The notes beneath the pieces are model-generated. The model saw only the letters and a program-made list of their open reading frames with translations, searched no databases and was not told where the DNA came from. The translations under genes and the position numbers were made by a program. Positions 7,299 through 34,850 of a stretch of DNA of 35,576 nucleotides are shown here, piece after piece. Within the stretch, counting starts at the first letter, position 1. Each line of letters opens with the position of its first letter. The DNA comes from Clostridia bacterium (lineage in GTDB: Bacteria > Bacillota > Clostridia > Christensenellales > CAG-1252): the NCBI GenBank assembly GCA_017455605.1, contig JAFSZO010000110.1, positions 1 through 35,576 of the forward strand, given 5' to 3'.

Positions 7299-7447
7299 TC
7301 GGCAGGAAAGGTTTTATTTGAGCCATTGGTTTTGCGGAGGCTTGATCAAGCGATATCGAACGATCATTCGCCCGCAGGGCGTCATCACTACATCCTTAAC
7401 TCCACTCTTCACTCTCCACACTCCACTCTCGCGGCGCGTAGCGACCC

Positions 7448-7470
7448 GCAATTCCGCATTCCGCATTAAA
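7448..7470 (+). repeat. Heptamer repeat block (ATTCCGN type)
   Basis: Two to three head-to-tail copies of ATTCCGC followed by ATTAAA. The same heptamers recur at 7663-7736, 13029-13095, 17061-17162, 19844-19920, 20044-20077 and 34825-34850, always between genes. Confidence 0.75.
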
Positions 7471-7488
7471 CGGAGCGTCTGCGACCCG

Positions 7489-7570
7489 CAACTTGTGCCT
7501 TTGGCACAAACTTCGCTACGCAGTAACTTCACACGGCGTCAGCCGTACTTCACTGCGATTGGCTTCACCT
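7489..7570 (-). repeat. Hairpin cassettes with constant AGTGAAGTT-type spacers (inverted copy)
   Basis: On the + strand the constant block reads AACTTCAC or ACTTCACT. Between copies lie small perfect hairpins of unrelated sequence: TTGTGCC-TTT-GGCACAA (7493-7509) and ACGGC-GTCA-GCCGT (7533-7546). The opposite-strand version of the same design is at 34661-34766. Confidence 0.65.
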
Positions 7571-7581
7571 CAATACTCGGC

Positions 7582-7622
7582 GCTCCCTCCGCTACGGTCG
7601 GGATGACAATGATAGTATCATT
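7582..7622 (+). repeat. Repeat with 15-bp palindrome (copy 1)
   Basis: CCTCCGCTACGGTCGGGATGAC leads into the palindrome AATGATA-G-TATCATT (7608-7622). Two opposite-strand copies lie at 19993-20033 and 20095-20136. A piece of the ATTGGGG hairpin repeat follows directly, as it does beside copy 2, so the two parts probably form one composite element. Confidence 0.7.
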
Positions 7623-7662
7623 CGGAACGTTAGCGTTGCATTGGGGCGTGACGGCGTGACCC

Positions 7663-7736
7663 GCAATTCCTAATTCCTCATTCCTAATTCCTAATTAAAA
7701 CGAGCAATTCCGCATTCCGCATTCCGAATTCCGCGT
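7663..7736 (+). repeat. Heptamer repeat block (ATTCCTN then ATTCCGN)
   Basis: A run of ATTCCTA/ATTCCTC heptamers ends in ATTAAAA. After a short non-repeat piece a run of ATTCCGC/ATTCCGA heptamers follows. This two-part order recurs in the other large blocks. Confidence 0.8.
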
Positions 7737-7778
7737 CAAATAGCTTTGCCCGGGTCGCCTCGCGCTTTTCTCGTTATT

Positions 7779-7840: not shown

Positions 7841-8695
7841 ATGGACAATTTGACGAACTATTTTCAAAACATCGGTTGGCTGTCGATCGTGGATGCGGCG
7901 GTGCTGATCGCGTTTCTCGTCGTGGTCATGGTCTTTTTCTTCCGCAAGAAGAATTATCGCGTCGGCATCTTCTTCGTGCTTTTTACCTTGTTCATGGTCG
8001 GCGTCGACGTCGCGATCTCCTTCTTCGACGTCAAGTCGATCTACTTCACGCGGGAGATCCTCCGTATGCTGGCGATCATCTTCATCGTCGCGAGCGCCGT
8101 GGTCTACCAGTCCGATCTGAAGCTCCTCTTTGCAAAGTTCGGCGGACAGGCGGAGGAGAACGTCTATGCGAAGCTCCACAATTCCCGCAACGAGGACGAC
8201 CTGCGTTACGCCTCGGGTGAGATCGTCAAGGCGTGCCAAAACCTCGCGAAGAACAACATCGGCGCCTTGATCGTCGTCTGCCCGACCATCATCTCTTCCA
8301 ATATGCTGGATACCGGTATCCGTCTGAACAGCGTGCTGTCCGCTCCCTTACTCGAGAGCATTTTCAACCCGCACGCCCCCTTGCACGACGGCGCCGTCAT
8401 TATCAAGAACAATATGGTGCTCGCGGCGGGCTGCTTCCTGCCTCTGTCGCAGAATCCCTCGATCAGCAAGGACCTCGGCACCCGTCACCGCGCCGCCATC
8501 GGCATCACCGAGGAGAGCGACGTGCTGACCATCGTCGTCAGCGAGGAGACGGGCATCATCTCCCTCGTGCAGAACGGCGACATCAAGCGCTACATCACGG
8601 GTGAAAAGCTGATGGACGCCCTCGACACCGCCTTCGGCATCACCGACCTCAGCCGCAGGAGCTCCAGACAGTTCGGGAGGAACGTCAGGAAATAA
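7841..8695 (+). CDS. cdaA: Diadenylate cyclase CdaA
   Basis: Makes the second messenger c-di-AMP from two ATP; it controls potassium and osmolyte uptake and cell-wall balance in Bacillota. The 284 residues have the CdaA layout: three N-terminal membrane helices (about 14-34, 40-60, 76-90) and a DAC domain with catalytic DGA at 183-185 and RHR at 215-217. The ribosome site AGAGGTG at 7828-7834 points to the ATG at 7841, not the in-frame GTG at 7832. Its stop shares a base with the next start (TAATG). The usual partner cdaR is absent; DUF1015 takes that position. Confidence 0.95.
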   Translation: MDNLTNYFQNIGWLSIVDAAVLIAFLVVVMVFFFRKKNYRVGIFFVLFTLFMVGVDVAISFFDVKSIYFTREILRMLAIIFIVASAVVYQSDLKLLFAKFGGQAEENVYAKLHNSRNEDDLRYASGEIVKACQNLAKNNIGALIVVCPTIISSNMLDTGIRLNSVLSAPLLESIFNPHAPLHDGAVIIKNNMVLAAGCFLPLSQNPSISKDLGTRHRAAIGITEESDVLTIVVSEETGIISLVQNGDIKRYITGEKLMDALDTAFGITDLSRRSSRQFGRNVRK

Positions 8696-9921
8696 TGAAA
8701 GACATCGTGAGGATCCCGCGCGTTCTCCTGCCGAAGGAGGGCGTGGATATGAGTAAATGGGCTGTCATCGCCTGCGACCAGTTCACTTCGCAGGGACAGT
8801 ATTGGAATGCATTGCAGGACTATTGCGGCGACGTCTCCGCGCTCAACGTCATTTTCCCCGAGTATTACCTCGACAAGGGGGATATGGAGGCGCGCATCCG
8901 CAGCATCAACGATCACATGACCAAATACCTTTCGGAGGGCGTTTTCCGCGAAGTGGAGGGCGTGATCCTCACCGAGAGGGAGACCGCGTACGGGCACAAG
9001 CGCACCGGCATTTTGCTCGCGCTCGATCTCGAAGAGTACGATTTCCGCACGGGCGTCCGTCCGATGATCCGCGCGACCGAGGCGACGGTCAAGGAGCGTC
9101 TCCCCGTTCGACTGAAGATCCGCGAACACGCTCCCCTCGAGCTCCCGCACGTGCTGATCCTGATCGACGACGAGGACCATACCGTCATCGAGCCTCTCGT
9201 TCGGGAGGCGGAGGCGACCGCGCCCCTCTACGACGCCGATCTCAATATGAACGGCGGGCATATCAAGGGCTATCTGCTCCCGCACCCCGAGCGAGCTGTC
9301 GAGGCGATCCGCGCGCTCTCCTCTGAGGATCGTATGCTCTCGCGTTACGGCGACCGCACACCTTTTCTCTTCGCCGTCGGCGACGGCAACCAGTCCGTAG
9401 CCACCGCGAAACTGATGTGGGAGAGCATCAAACCTACCCTATCCGAGGCGGAGCGGGAGAGCCATCCCGCGCGTTTCGTACTCGCCGAGATCGTGAACCT
9501 TTACGACGAGGACCTCGTCTTTGAGGCGATCCACCGCGTCGTCTTCGGTGTGGGCGAGTCCTTCATCACCGAGATGCAGGCGGCACTCTCCGGCGAGGGA
9601 CACGTCAGCCTGCTTTATCGCGACAAGATGTACGGCGTCTCCGTTCCCCGCGTGGCGGCGGAGGCGGTCAAGGCGGTGCAGAACTTCATCGACCGCTATC
9701 TCGCTACGCACGAGAACGCGTCGGTCGACTACATACACGGCGACGGCTATCTCGCGGAGGTGGCGGCGGCGAAGGACGGCGTCGCGATCTTTATGCCCGT
9801 GATGGAGAAGAGGGACCTGTTTCCCTACGTCGTACGGCACGGATCTCTCCCGCGCAAGACCTTTTCGATGGGGGAGGCGGAGGAGAAACGGTATTACTTA
9901 GAAGCGCGCAAGATCGTTTGA
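8695..9921 (+). CDS. DUF1015 family protein
   Basis: 408 residues matching the DUF1015 pattern from end to end: the N-terminal RIPRVLLP and WAVIACDQFTSQ, a central LILIDDEDHTVIEPL, and DGNQSVATAK where the family normally reads DGNHSxAxAK, so the histidine is replaced by glutamine. Known: DUF1015 is widespread in anaerobes, often beside serine-biosynthesis genes, with no settled biochemical role that I can cite. Translational coupling to cdaA is the only local clue. A family A hairpin element begins inside its last codon. Confidence 0.85.
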   Translation: MKDIVRIPRVLLPKEGVDMSKWAVIACDQFTSQGQYWNALQDYCGDVSALNVIFPEYYLDKGDMEARIRSINDHMTKYLSEGVFREVEGVILTERETAYGHKRTGILLALDLEEYDFRTGVRPMIRATEATVKERLPVRLKIREHAPLELPHVLILIDDEDHTVIEPLVREAEATAPLYDADLNMNGGHIKGYLLPHPERAVEAIRALSSEDRMLSRYGDRTPFLFAVGDGNQSVATAKLMWESIKPTLSEAERESHPARFVLAEIVNLYDEDLVFEAIHRVVFGVGESFITEMQAALSGEGHVSLLYRDKMYGVSVPRVAAEAVKAVQNFIDRYLATHENASVDYIHGDGYLAEVAAAKDGVAIFMPVMEKRDLFPYVVRHGSLPRKTFSMGEAEEKRYYLEARKIV

Positions 9922-10043
9922 GGGCGAATGCATCGCGGAGCTCTTTGTTTCTGACTTCGGCTTGACGAAATCACGTACAAGGAGTACGCTCATTCGCACA
10001 AGCCTTGTCGAGCCTCGATCTCCGCGCGCCTTCGCCCTCAAAC
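9916..10043 (+). repeat. Family A nested-hairpin element, copy 1
   Basis: Nested pairing found by hand: GTTTGAGGGCGAA (9916-9928) with TTCGCCCTCAAAC (10031-10043); CGCGGAG (9934-9940) with CTCCGCG (10020-10026); GGCTTG (9959-9964) with CAAGCC (9999-10004); CGAA (9966-9969) with TTCG (9993-9996); CGTAC (9974-9978) with GTACG (9984-9988), loop AAGGA. Unpaired constant blocks are CTTTGTTTCTG (9943-9953) and TTGTCGAGCCTCG (10005-10017). The outer arm contains the DUF1015 stop codon. No T-tract follows, so it is not a standard terminator. Confidence 0.8.
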
Positions 10044-10190
10044 AGGTGCGAATGCATCGGGTCGTTGCGGAACGAAGGTAAAAAAGCGGATATCATCCGA
10101 CTTCGGCTTGACGAAATCACGTACAAGGAGTACGCTCATTCGCACAAGCCTCGTCGAGCCTCGACCTCCGCGCGCCTTCGCCCTCAAACG
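10044..10190 (+). repeat. Family A element, copy 2 (tandem)
   Basis: Same inner hairpin as copy 1, from GGCTTG at 10105-10110 to CAAGCC at 10145-10150, 146 bp downstream. The 3' half repeats copy 1 almost exactly. The 5' half differs (a GCGGATATCATC block replaces CTTTGTTTCTG), yet GCGAA/TTCGC and GCGG/CCGC can still pair across the inner hairpin. Confidence 0.7.
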
Positions 10191-10335
10191 GGAGCGAATG
10201 CATCGGGTCGTACCGAACGAAGGTAAAAAAGCGGATATCATCTGACTTCGGCTTGACGAAATCACGTACAAGGAGTGCGCTCATTCGCACAAGCCTTGTC
10301 GAGCCTCGACCTCCGCGCGCCTTCGCCCTTAAATC
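10191..10335 (+). repeat. Family A element, copy 3 (tandem)
   Basis: GGCTTG at 10250-10255 to CAAGCC at 10290-10295, 145 bp after copy 2. The tip reads CGTAC-AAGGA-GTGCG, so one A-to-G change converts a T-A pair into a G-T wobble and leaves the stem intact. Elsewhere nearly identical to copy 2, which indicates recent tandem duplication. Confidence 0.7.
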
Positions 10336-11766: not shown

Positions 11767-12723
11767 ATGATTTATGCAGGTGTGGACGTCGGCGGAATGA
11801 GCATCAAGTGCTGTCTTGCCACCGAGAAGGGCGAAATCCTCGCCAAGGACAGTTTCAAGACGGAGAAGGACCTCACGTGCGCGGGCATGGCAGAGCAGAC
11901 CGCCGCGTGCATCAAGTCCCTCGCCGCGAAGGCTCAGGTCGCCGAGAGCGAGATCGTTGCTGTCGGTATGGGCATCCCCGGTACGGTGGACGGCAAGAAG
12001 GGAATGATCGTCTATAGCAACAACATTCGGATGGATCACGCTCCCATTGTGAAGGAAATGAAGAAACACTTTGCCTGTCCCGTCTACGTTGAGAACGACG
12101 CCAACGCCGCCGCCGTGGGCGAAGCGGTCTTCGGCGCAGCCAAGGGACTGAACGACGTTTTGCTCATCACCCTCGGCACGGGGGTCGGCACGGGCATCAT
12201 CGCGAACGGCAGGATGATCACGGGCAAGGGCGGCACCGGTGCGGAAGGTGGTCACACCATGATCCGCATGAACGGCGAGCCTTGCACCTGCGGCAATCGC
12301 GGCTGCTACGAGGCATACGCCTCCGCCACTGCACTCCTTCGGCAGACCGAGCGGATGGTACAGCGCCGTCCCGACAGTTTGCTCGCTCGCCTCTGGGCGG
12401 AGCGTGGCAGGTCCGGGCGCGTCCCCTTCGACGCGGCGAAAGCGGGCGATCCCGCCGGGCTAAAGGTGGTCCGTGACTACGTGAAATACGTTGCGGCGGG
12501 CTTGCAGGGGATGGTCAACATCTTCCGTCCCGACGTCGTCTTGATCGGCGGCGGCATCAGCAACCAAGGGGACTACTTCATCAGCAGCGTTTCTCGCAGG
12601 CTCAATCACATCGTGTTCGGCGCGGGCATCAATCCGCGCGTGAAGGTGAGGGCGGCGGAGCTGAAGAATGATGCGGGGTTATTGGGCGCAGTAGCCCTCG
12701 CTGTAAAAGGTGCCAACGCATAA
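11767..12723 (+). CDS. ROK family sugar kinase (glucokinase-like)
   Basis: 318 residues. The N-terminal phosphate motif YAGVDVGGMSIK, the PVYVENDANAAAVGE catalytic region (D of END as base), ITLGTGVGTGIIANG, GAEGGH and the zinc motif CTCGNRGCYE are all present, so the protein should be an active ROK kinase rather than a NagC-type repressor (no N-terminal HTH). Glucose is the commonest substrate of this subgroup in Bacillota, but N-acetyl sugars are possible. AGAGGTG ahead of the ATG gives the start. The last 12 nt of the gene form the outer arm of family A copy 4. Confidence 0.9.
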   Translation: MIYAGVDVGGMSIKCCLATEKGEILAKDSFKTEKDLTCAGMAEQTAACIKSLAAKAQVAESEIVAVGMGIPGTVDGKKGMIVYSNNIRMDHAPIVKEMKKHFACPVYVENDANAAAVGEAVFGAAKGLNDVLLITLGTGVGTGIIANGRMITGKGGTGAEGGHTMIRMNGEPCTCGNRGCYEAYASATALLRQTERMVQRRPDSLLARLWAERGRSGRVPFDAAKAGDPAGLKVVRDYVKYVAAGLQGMVNIFRPDVVLIGGGISNQGDYFISSVSRRLNHIVFGAGINPRVKVRAAELKNDAGLLGAVALAVKGANA

Positions 12724-12834
12724 GGCGGCATCTACTTTGTTTCTGCCTGCGGCTTTGCGACATCACGTACAAGGAGTACGCTCAATCGCAAAGCCTTGTC
12801 GAGCCTCGTATCTCCCACCTTTTGCGTTGGCACC
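12709..12834 (+). repeat. Family A nested-hairpin element, copy 4
   Basis: Pairing: GGTGCCAACGCA (12709-12720, the last codons of the ROK gene) with TGCGTTGGCACC (12823-12834), then AAGG (12722-12725) with CCTT (12818-12821), GG (12727-12728) with CC (12815-12816); inner stem GGCTTTGCGA (12751-12760) with TCGCAAAGCC (12786-12795); tip CGTAC-AAGGA-GTACG. Constant blocks CTTTGTTTCTG (12735-12745) and TTGTCGAGCCTCG (12796-12808) match copy 1, while every stem differs from copy 1 outside the tip. Confidence 0.85.
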
Positions 12835-12871
12835 GGTGTGAGTTCGTAGCGCGGCGACCGCGCATAACAGC

Positions 12872-12992
12872 GAGCGCGTATAAGGGCGCATCTGCTTCGT
12901 TTCTGCCTTCGCGTTAGCGAAATCACGTACAATGAGTACGCTCATTCGCTCCCGCTCGTCGAGCCTTGCATCTGCAACCCTTCTCCGCGCTC
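12872..12992 (+). repeat. Family A nested-hairpin element, copy 5
   Basis: Pairing: GAGCGCG (12872-12878) with CGCGCTC (12986-12992); AAGGG (12882-12886) with CCCTT (12978-12982); GCG (12911-12913) with CGC (12953-12955); AGCGAA (12916-12921) with TTCGCT (12945-12950); tip CGTAC-AATGA-GTACG. Constant blocks are CTTCGTTTCTG (12895-12905) and TCGTCGAGCCTTG (12956-12968). A third independent set of stem sequences. A small hairpin GCGCGG-CGA-CCGCGC (12849-12863) separates it from copy 4. Confidence 0.82.
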
Positions 12993-13028
12993 TTTGCATT
13001 AAAAAACGAGCGAAGCGGGTCCTCATGT

Positions 13029-13095
13029 ATTCCGCATTCCGCATTCCGAATTCCGAATTAAGCGGAGCGTAGCGACTCGCCATTCCTAATTAAAA
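13029..13095 (+). repeat. Heptamer repeat block
   Basis: ATTCCGC/ATTCCGA heptamers, a short spacer and one ATTCCTA unit ending ATTAAAA. It abuts the ribosome site (GGGAGG) of the flavodoxin gene. Together with family A copies 4 and 5 it fills the 382-bp gap 12724-13105; I see no gene there. Confidence 0.8.
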
Positions 13096-16880: not shown

Positions 16881-16945
16881 CCTTTCTGCGTTGCCACCTG
16901 TGTGAGTTTTGAGCGCTCGTCTCAAACAGATCATTCGGAGCTGCA

Positions 16946-16997
16946 GCGTCACATTGGGGTTCCCCGAAAAATCGAACAGATTTTTGGGGCGTGACGC
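16946..16997 (+). repeat. ATTGGGG hairpin repeat, copy 1 (tandem)
   Basis: Outer stem GCGTCAC (16946-16952) with GTGACGC (16991-16997). Inner stem CCCC plus AAAAATC with GATTTTT plus GGGG, loop GAACA. Repeated immediately downstream with a 53-bp period. Confidence 0.8.
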
Positions 16998-16998
16998 A

Positions 16999-17050
16999 GC
17001 GTCACATTGGGGTTCCCCGAAAATCGAACAGATTTTTTGGGGCGTGACGC
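16999..17050 (+). repeat. ATTGGGG hairpin repeat, copy 2 (tandem)
   Basis: Same as copy 1 apart from A/T-tract length. GCGTCAC (16999-17005) pairs with GTGACGC (17044-17050). Confidence 0.8.
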
Positions 17051-17060
17051 AGGCGACCCT

Positions 17061-17162
17061 TAATTCCTAATTCCTCATTCCTAATTCCTAATTAAAAAAG
17101 ACTCCCTTCGCTCGACATTGCTTGGCGCTGTCCGCAATTCCGCATTCCGAATTCCGCATTAG
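17061..17162 (+). repeat. Heptamer repeat block
   Basis: ATTCCTA/ATTCCTC run ending ATTAAAA, about 35 bp of other sequence, then an ATTCCGC/ATTCCGA run ending ATTAGA. Same two-part order as at 7663-7736. Confidence 0.8.
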
Positions 17163-17244
17163 AGAATGCTCGACATTACAGAAACTCGTCCACACGCTTC
17201 GCTCTCCACGCATCACTCCCGCCCCGCGGTCGTTTTGTTTCTTC

Positions 17245-19843: not shown

Positions 19844-19920
19844 TTAATTCGGAATGCGGAATTGCGGACGCCGATAGGCGACTTTCCAATTAGGAATTAG
19901 GAATGAGGAATTAGGAATGA
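19844..19920 (-). repeat. Heptamer repeat block (inverted)
   Basis: Minus-strand orientation of the two-part block: ATTCGGAATGCGGA-type units, a spacer carrying GCCGATAGGC, then ATTAGGA/ATGAGGA units. Confidence 0.8.
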
Positions 19921-19930
19921 AGGGTCGCGC

Positions 19931-19982
19931 CGTCGCGCCCCAAAAAATCTGTTCGTTTTTTCGGGGAACCCCAATGCGACGC
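19931..19982 (-). repeat. ATTGGGG hairpin repeat, copy 3
   Basis: On the minus strand the outer stem is GCGTCGC with GCGACG, where copies 1 and 2 have GCGTCAC with GTGACGC: a compensatory A-T to G-C change. The inner stem and loop GAACA are kept. Confidence 0.78.
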
Positions 19983-19992
19983 TAACGCTCTG

Positions 19993-20033
19993 AATGATAC
20001 TATCATTGTCATCCCGACCGTAGCGGAGGGATC
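19993..20033 (-). repeat. Repeat with 15-bp palindrome (copy 2)
   Basis: AATGATA-C-TATCATT (19993-20007), then GTCATCCCGACCGTAGCGG. It is joined to ATTGGGG repeat copy 3 in the same order as near 7.6 kb. Confidence 0.75.
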
Positions 20034-20043
20034 ACCGCGTATT

Positions 20044-20077
20044 TAATGCGGAATTCGGAATTCGGAATGCGGAATAA
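20044..20077 (-). repeat. Heptamer repeat block
   Basis: Four to five ATTCGGA/ATGCGGA units between the two palindrome repeats. Confidence 0.75.
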
Positions 20078-20094
20078 AGGGTCACTTCGTTCCG

Positions 20095-20136
20095 AATGAT
20101 ACTATCATTGTCATCTCGACCGTAGCGGAGGGATCC
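20095..20136 (-). repeat. Repeat with 15-bp palindrome (copy 3)
   Basis: AATGATA-C-TATCATT at 20095-20109 followed by GTCATCTCGACCGTAGCGG. One base differs from copy 2 in the tail. Confidence 0.75.
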
Positions 20137-34824: not shown

Positions 34825-34850
34825 CCGCAATTCCGCATTCTGCATTAAAC
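34825..34850 (+). repeat. Short heptamer repeat block
   Basis: Two to three ATTCCGC-like units ending ATTAAA, just beyond the 3' end of the small membrane-protein gene. Confidence 0.65.

Follow-up and report, generated by a model that had tools for sequence, protein, structure and literature searches.

Hairpin repeats with variable, self-paired base stems at gene 3′ ends in a genus of Clostridia

Inverted gene ends in the window

The 35,576-nucleotide stretch of Clostridia bacterium DNA analysed here (contig JAFSZO010000110.1 of GenBank assembly GCA_017455605.1; hereafter the window) contains two genes whose 3′ ends recur a short distance downstream as inverted copies, which raises the question of why the arms of a repeat should match the end of the gene that precedes it. 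A preliminary description made from the sequence alone offered two answers: either the 3′ arm had been templated from the gene end, or the arm had evolved to sequester each stop region. The features concerned are the following.

8695..9921, + strand: DUF1015 gene (ORF list, Pfam PF06245), whose last codon and TGA lie within the left arm of copy 1
9916..10043, + strand: copy 1 of the repeat, with perfect 13-bp arms (sequence, arm search)
10090..10189, + strand: copy 2, a tandem duplicate without the left arm, core near 10118 (direct repeat D1, sequence)
10236..10334, + strand: copy 3, a tandem duplicate without the left arm, core near 10264 (direct repeat D1, sequence)
11767..12723, + strand: ROK-family gene (ORF list, Pfam PF00480, orthologue panel), with its stop TAA at 12721–12723
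12709..12834, + strand: copy 4, full hairpin (sequence, repeat search, folding)
12709..12720, + strand: left outer arm of copy 4, GGTGCCAACGCA, made up of the final four codons of the ROK ORF (sequence)
12823..12834, + strand: right outer arm of copy 4, TGCGTTGGCACC (sequence)
about 12869..12995, + strand: copy 5, distant from a gene end (direct repeat D2, genome search, arm search)

Both matches that drew attention to this locus are borne out by the sequence. In copy 4, TGCGTTGGCACC is the perfect complement of GGTGCCAACGCA, from which it is separated by 102 nt, and the stop of the ROK gene is a conserved TAA that belongs to the repeat. When copy 4 is folded as single-stranded DNA, its stability corresponds to z = −6.95 relative to shuffles. 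In copy 1, the left arm GTTTGAGGGCGAA (9916–9928) covers the last codon and TGA of DUF1015, and the right arm TTCGCCCTCAAAC lies at 10031–10043. Copy 2 keeps TTCGCCCTCAAAC (10177–10189) and copy 3 carries a diverged version, TTCGCCCTTAAAT (10322–10334), with no gene end preceding either of them. The arms of copy 5 are shorter, at 7 bp (GAGCGCG, 12872–12878; CGCGCTC, 12986–12992).

The explanation in which we place somewhat better than even confidence is that a hairpin repeat, which would bring its own base stem, resides at gene 3′ ends and has its arms rewritten by DNA-templated correction. The match between gene and arm would then reflect a stop region that falls within the arm; it would not mean that the gene had served as the source of the arm.

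A family of hairpin repeats

The ~127-bp hairpin repeat is a previously undescribed family, non-coding and interspersed, of a REP- or MITE-like kind. The 1.26-Mb assembly to which the window belongs contains 48 matches at E ≤ 10, many of them weak, and 39 strict apex matches (~40 copies). Within the genus, the repeat is present in 12 of 13 genomes, G005 having no copy; in other genera of the family it is nearly absent. With a core pattern, 88 stretches were recovered from named MAGs; every one of these MAGs is labelled Clostridia, Clostridiales, or Christensenella, and many come from rumen. Copies occur in at least 10 related MAGs. Counts throughout derive from apex patterns, by which divergent copies are missed, and from fragmented MAGs with simple ORFs as gene calls, in which related copies are not independent samples.

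Folded individually, each copy forms a single long hairpin. A stem of ~10 bp closes its base; above this lie internal stems and a middle stem that covaries, and ATCA and CTCA flank the apex, CGTAC-N5-GTACG. The CGTAC/GTACG apex is invariant, partly by construction because it served as the search pattern. Application of the structure from one copy to 36 equal-register copies gave 86% pairing, 250 doubly changed cells (versus 78 in shuffles), and a covariation of 0.42 (versus 0.15 in shuffles and 0.08–0.11 for slid structures); all 10 pairs of the base stem show changes on both sides. A known RNA family was rejected as the identity of the repeat since Rfam gave no hit above gathering and just two weak, unrelated E-value hits. 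A phage or plasmid origin was likewise rejected for want of a match, the IMG/VR matches being confined to four short contigs.

Copies are anchored at stop codons

Where a copy has an ORF upstream of it (88 copies), the stop codon mostly ends between −6 and +18 relative to the left end of the repeat (64 copies). In 48 copies the stop marks the arm's outer end, and in 16 the gene reads across the left arm and stops at a TAA or TAG of the repeat body. The repeat-encoded C-termini (SDCV*, ADCV*, HDDV*, HDGV*, VEGV*, and GANA*; pattern DCV*, DDV*, DGV*) are found in unrelated families that include, by Pfam, Mur ligase, HAD hydrolase, tetrapyrrole methylase, an FAD-dependent protein, rubrerythrin, and ROK; NadE, identified from sequence, also ends in repeat-encoded codons. 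Outside predicted genes, 54 copies are oriented with the upstream gene and 13 opposite to it, according to simple ORF calls. In most cases, the gene end falls inside, or abuts, the repeat's own arm.

Gene orientation and stop anchoring, both established by this comparison, are also features that might be expected if pairing were kept purely by selection on RNA structure, as a terminator or a stop-sequestering element, through ordinary compensatory mutations. The strong covariation and the replacement of terminators (see below) likewise favor this alternative, which we nevertheless regard as unlikely given the behavior of the arms.

The arms vary together at a nearly fixed length

The base stem is perfect or near-perfect in 102 of 170 copies, and its sequence differs from copy to copy while its length is nearly fixed. 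Arms of at least 8 bp are present in 55% of 137 copies from many genomes, versus 1.9% of chimeras in which the left and right halves come from different copies. The inverted arms of copies 1 and 4 are genuine, far above chance. Pairing begins sharply at −58/−57 and is at chance level at −59 and outward. Of 49 copies paired through −58, 48 extend 0–2 bases further, which is near the swapped controls. The sole exception is L093, whose pairing extends 11 bases beyond −58 into the coding sequence for GGFGGRR* to give a 20-bp arm covering 13 nt of coding sequence plus TGA.

These lengths bear on the proposal that the gene end acted as template for the 3′ arm, either during insertion or later, through hairpin-primed copying or strand switching. 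Such copying should give variable arm lengths, and therefore the near-fixed length in copies other than L093 counts against it, whereas the long arm of L093 favors it and weighs against our own explanation. Also contrary to gene templating, unrelated genes flank identical arms. Near-identical bodies at unrelated loci share arms in L010/L012 (AACGACTGCG), L071/L101, and L076/L092, and share the left arm in L004/L005; in other such cases, the arms often differ at a few compensated positions. The earlier view that the arms match each host gene consequently holds in part: the arms are copy-specific, self-paired, and overlap or abut stops, but near-identical copies can share them. What does not hold in general is that the arm is an inverted copy of the gene end, since unrelated genes share repeat-encoded ends and unrelated loci can share arms. 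The same description took copies with arms of equal length away from gene ends as evidence against itself, and that evidence is largely present.

For 31 near-identical pairs, bodies differ at 6.3% of positions and arms at 32–34%, or about five times more, and 81% of the left-arm differences are compensated. The arms therefore change jointly against a conserved body. Their consensus, CGANNGCG, is weak (0.1–1.4 bits per position), a single arm pair can be seen as CG, GC, AT, and TA, and swaps from C-G to G-C are frequent with no G-U path between them. Interior mismatches number 20 in 1105 arm cells of 102 copies (5 G-T, 4 A-C, and 11 other), and the middle stem has 8 G-T versus 12 A-C. Because selection at the RNA level should favor G-U, and G-T is not favored over A-C, we infer that pairing is maintained at the DNA level. 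The five-fold excess of arm differences and the like behavior of a second repeat located away from stops (described below) are further points against selection on RNA alone. In contrast, some positions in the inner helices alternate U-G with C-G, which is in keeping with RNA-level selection and counts against our explanation.

If DNA-templated correction is responsible, template switching in an extruded hairpin may rebuild one arm on the sequence of the other, a process that would allow the arms to drift fast yet stay matched with no G-U steps. According to published reports, a single template-switching event can both generate and repair a hairpin stem (PMC8794818), and template switching can lengthen the stretch of identity shared by the arms of an imperfect palindrome (PMC3820800).

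Orthologue comparisons

Five orthologue panels were compared (DUF1015, ROK, Spo0A, NadE, and DTD, the last three named from sequence). The DUF1015 gene carries the repeat in six congeners; in the seven that lack it, the next gene, whose sequence reads as an aspartokinase, lies close downstream. The repeat's arms covary across species (GGGCGAA/TTCGCCC, GGGCATA/TATGCCC, and GGGCACGATC/GATCGTGCCC). The ROK gene carries the repeat in nine genomes, in several forms, lacks it in three, and retains a remnant in one, and here too both arms change jointly across species. At the ROK end in G011 (L128), a second repeat is apparently nested in the ROK-end repeat, replacing its middle and leaving its outer right arm. 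In eight species, the repeat immediately follows the spo0A stop with eight different self-paired arms, and the LIECA* terminus is constant. Between G009 and G012, which are 91–94% identical around other genes, nadE matches up to the arm and then encodes FKDEK* in one and YSDDV* in the other, each with a matching right arm.

The preliminary description had asked whether the gene end predates the element. The element-free DTD gene of G011 ends in TACGATAACGTATAA, which is nearly the arm of G009, so the G009 arm is partly ancestral coding sequence; this finding supports gene templating and stands against our explanation. A conserved Gly codon (GGY) of ROK that falls within the arm is a further point for templating. 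However, the last codons of nadE vary jointly with the arm, and the spo0A arms, different in every species, lie after the stop. Given these two panels, the stem length set by the repeat, and the shared arms, templating from the gene end is not general, and we consider it improbable as the explanation for the family; for L093 and DTD, true copying of a gene end may have occurred. Of the two original proposals, that of an arm evolving as a unit around the stop is nearer to the data, stop sequestration itself being one form of the RNA-level alternative.

Clean empty sites and target duplications were not seen. Comparison of G009 with G012 yielded replaced elements and a deletion remnant; the latter, at site A, had been considered as an empty site and was rejected. 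That no empty site was found counts against our explanation. Coupled changes are clustered at G009/G012 sites, but with recombination between neighbouring copies. At two loci (L163/L164 and L160/L161), these genomes are 98–100% identical across the repeat and its flank but only 88–94% identical in the neighbouring sequence, which suggests strong constraint, exchange, or recent transfer.

Terminators and possible function

A T-tailed terminator within 100 nt of the stop was present in 10 of 12 element-free orthologues versus 0 of 19 element-bearing orthologues of DTD, spo0A, and ROK, a count from which a DTD deletion remnant and a truncated contig were omitted. DUF1015 and NadE have no terminator with or without the repeat. 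At DTD, spo0A, and ROK, the repeat thus occupies the place of the terminator, a pattern consistent with its having either displaced the terminator or assumed that role. T tracts 3′ of the right arm are enriched, though not general (17/45 versus 7/45 in background). At the DTD end in G002 (L263), a loop of ~23 nt lies between perfect 8-bp arms GAGGGCAT/ATGCCCTC and is followed by T6; this deletion remnant of the repeat could pass for an ordinary intrinsic terminator.

The missing terminators and the T tracts could also be understood if the host already had a hairpin at the site, for example a terminator, and the repeat inserted into its loop, the arms being the host stem; IS1272 is known to target stem-loops (PMC5678879). 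This account is very unlikely. None of 41 host terminators in G012 starts before the end of the stop codon in a simple scan, whereas the arms often overlap the stop; by inspection, the arm palindrome is in no element-free orthologue of the five panels; the CGACTGCG/CGCAGTCG palindrome, uninterrupted by the repeat, was not found in the genome containing the window; and the arms travel along with the repeat.

Under our preferred explanation of a repeat whose arms are corrected at the DNA level, the repeat would spread or be exchanged at 3′-end hairpin sites, displacing the host terminator, and in mRNA it would serve as the gene's 3′-end hairpin, either a terminator or a translation-coupled structure. 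A more far-reaching version, in which a self-spreading 3′-end cassette seizes the host stop and terminator and its base stem is then template-switched to fit each site, is doubtful. Ribosome stalling has been reported for REPs that lie within 15 nt of a stop (PMC12306157), an observation that favors RNA-level selection and makes stalling a further possible effect of a stop-anchored repeat.

Comparison with known systems

REP and REPIN elements with RAYT (PMC12306157, PMC3733652, PMC3116915) are dispersed extragenic hairpin palindromes often less than 20 nt from a gene 3′ end, and the present repeat, with 64 of 88 copies at a stop codon, is similarly placed. Unlike REPs and REPINs (20–40 bp), it measures ~127 bp, its base lacks a GTAG/CGTC tag, its base stems are copy-specific, and no Y1 transposase is linked to it. 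Y1 transposases (PF01797) are present in 4 of the 13 genomes, where they are unlinked to the repeat and share no ends with it, and were not detected in the 75% complete genome that contains the window. Y1/RAYT was therefore rejected as the mobiliser. No mobilising enzyme was found, which is another point against our explanation.

MITEs and small repeats such as RUP and BOX (PMC3049150) are also short, non-coding, and present in many copies with inverted ends; however, MITE ends are fixed and recognised by a transposase, whereas the ends here vary, with pairing alone kept and no target duplication seen. The repeat can be likened to IS1272, which targets gene 3′-end hairpins and replaces them (PMC5678879), in that terminators are missing where it is present, albeit with no before/after pair among the loci compared; unlike IS1272, which has its own transposase and inverted repeats, it is a non-coding hairpin with a variable base. 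Intrinsic terminators resemble it as hairpins after a stop codon, particularly the L263 remnant, but the repeat has a loop of ~100 nt and a T tract in a minority of copies. A parallel to the arms is template-switch or quasi-palindrome correction (PMC8794818, PMC3820800), which gives perfectly paired arms and multi-base compensated changes in one event; changes from one Watson-Crick pair to another with no G-U intermediates are indeed seen in the arms. Published descriptions treat that process as a source of mutations in RNA genes and in reporter assays, and not as what drives the variable ends of a dispersed repeat family.

If our explanation is correct, the family constitutes a natural genome-wide experiment on template switching, comprising more than 100 hairpins in a dozen related species, in which the body is conserved and the arms, though matched, vary freely. 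Unrelated core genes such as nadE would also owe to it their stop codons, their final amino acids, and probably their terminators; at spo0A, it follows the gene directly. Part of the sequence at gene ends in these bacteria would in that case derive from a mobile element, with consequences for annotation and for studies of 3′-end regulation.

A second hairpin repeat and other repeats

A second small hairpin repeat occurs in the window (16930–17049 and 19931–19998) and at L030, L125, L041, and L120, with types GGGGTTCCCCGAAAAATC...GATTTTTGGGG and, in other copies, CCCCAAAGAAT...ATTCTTCGGGGA. It is distant from stop codons and sometimes nested within the first repeat. Its arms are matched in each case (CGTCAC/GTGACG, CGTCGC/GCGACG, GCTGCC/GGCAGC, and CCCGCC/GGCGGG; also GCGTCAC, TCCCGCC, and AGCCGC with their partners), and arms of at least 6 bp are present in 10 of 16 copies, a small number, versus 10.6% in controls. 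Within the limits of this sample, the matched and varying arms suggest that a general DNA-level process may be at work.

Two other kinds of repeat were observed. Tandem-like repeats of the ATTCCGCATTCCGAATTCC type (7446–7741, 13024–13063, 17055–17164, 19844–20076, and 34825–34850 of the window) occupy many intergenic regions in both orientations, often adjoining other repeats. A repeat of 46–48 bases, GAATGATACTATCATTGTCATCCCGACCGTAGCGGAGGGATC, is present in direct and inverted copies that are 94–98% identical (7584–7629, 19986–20033, and 20088–20135).
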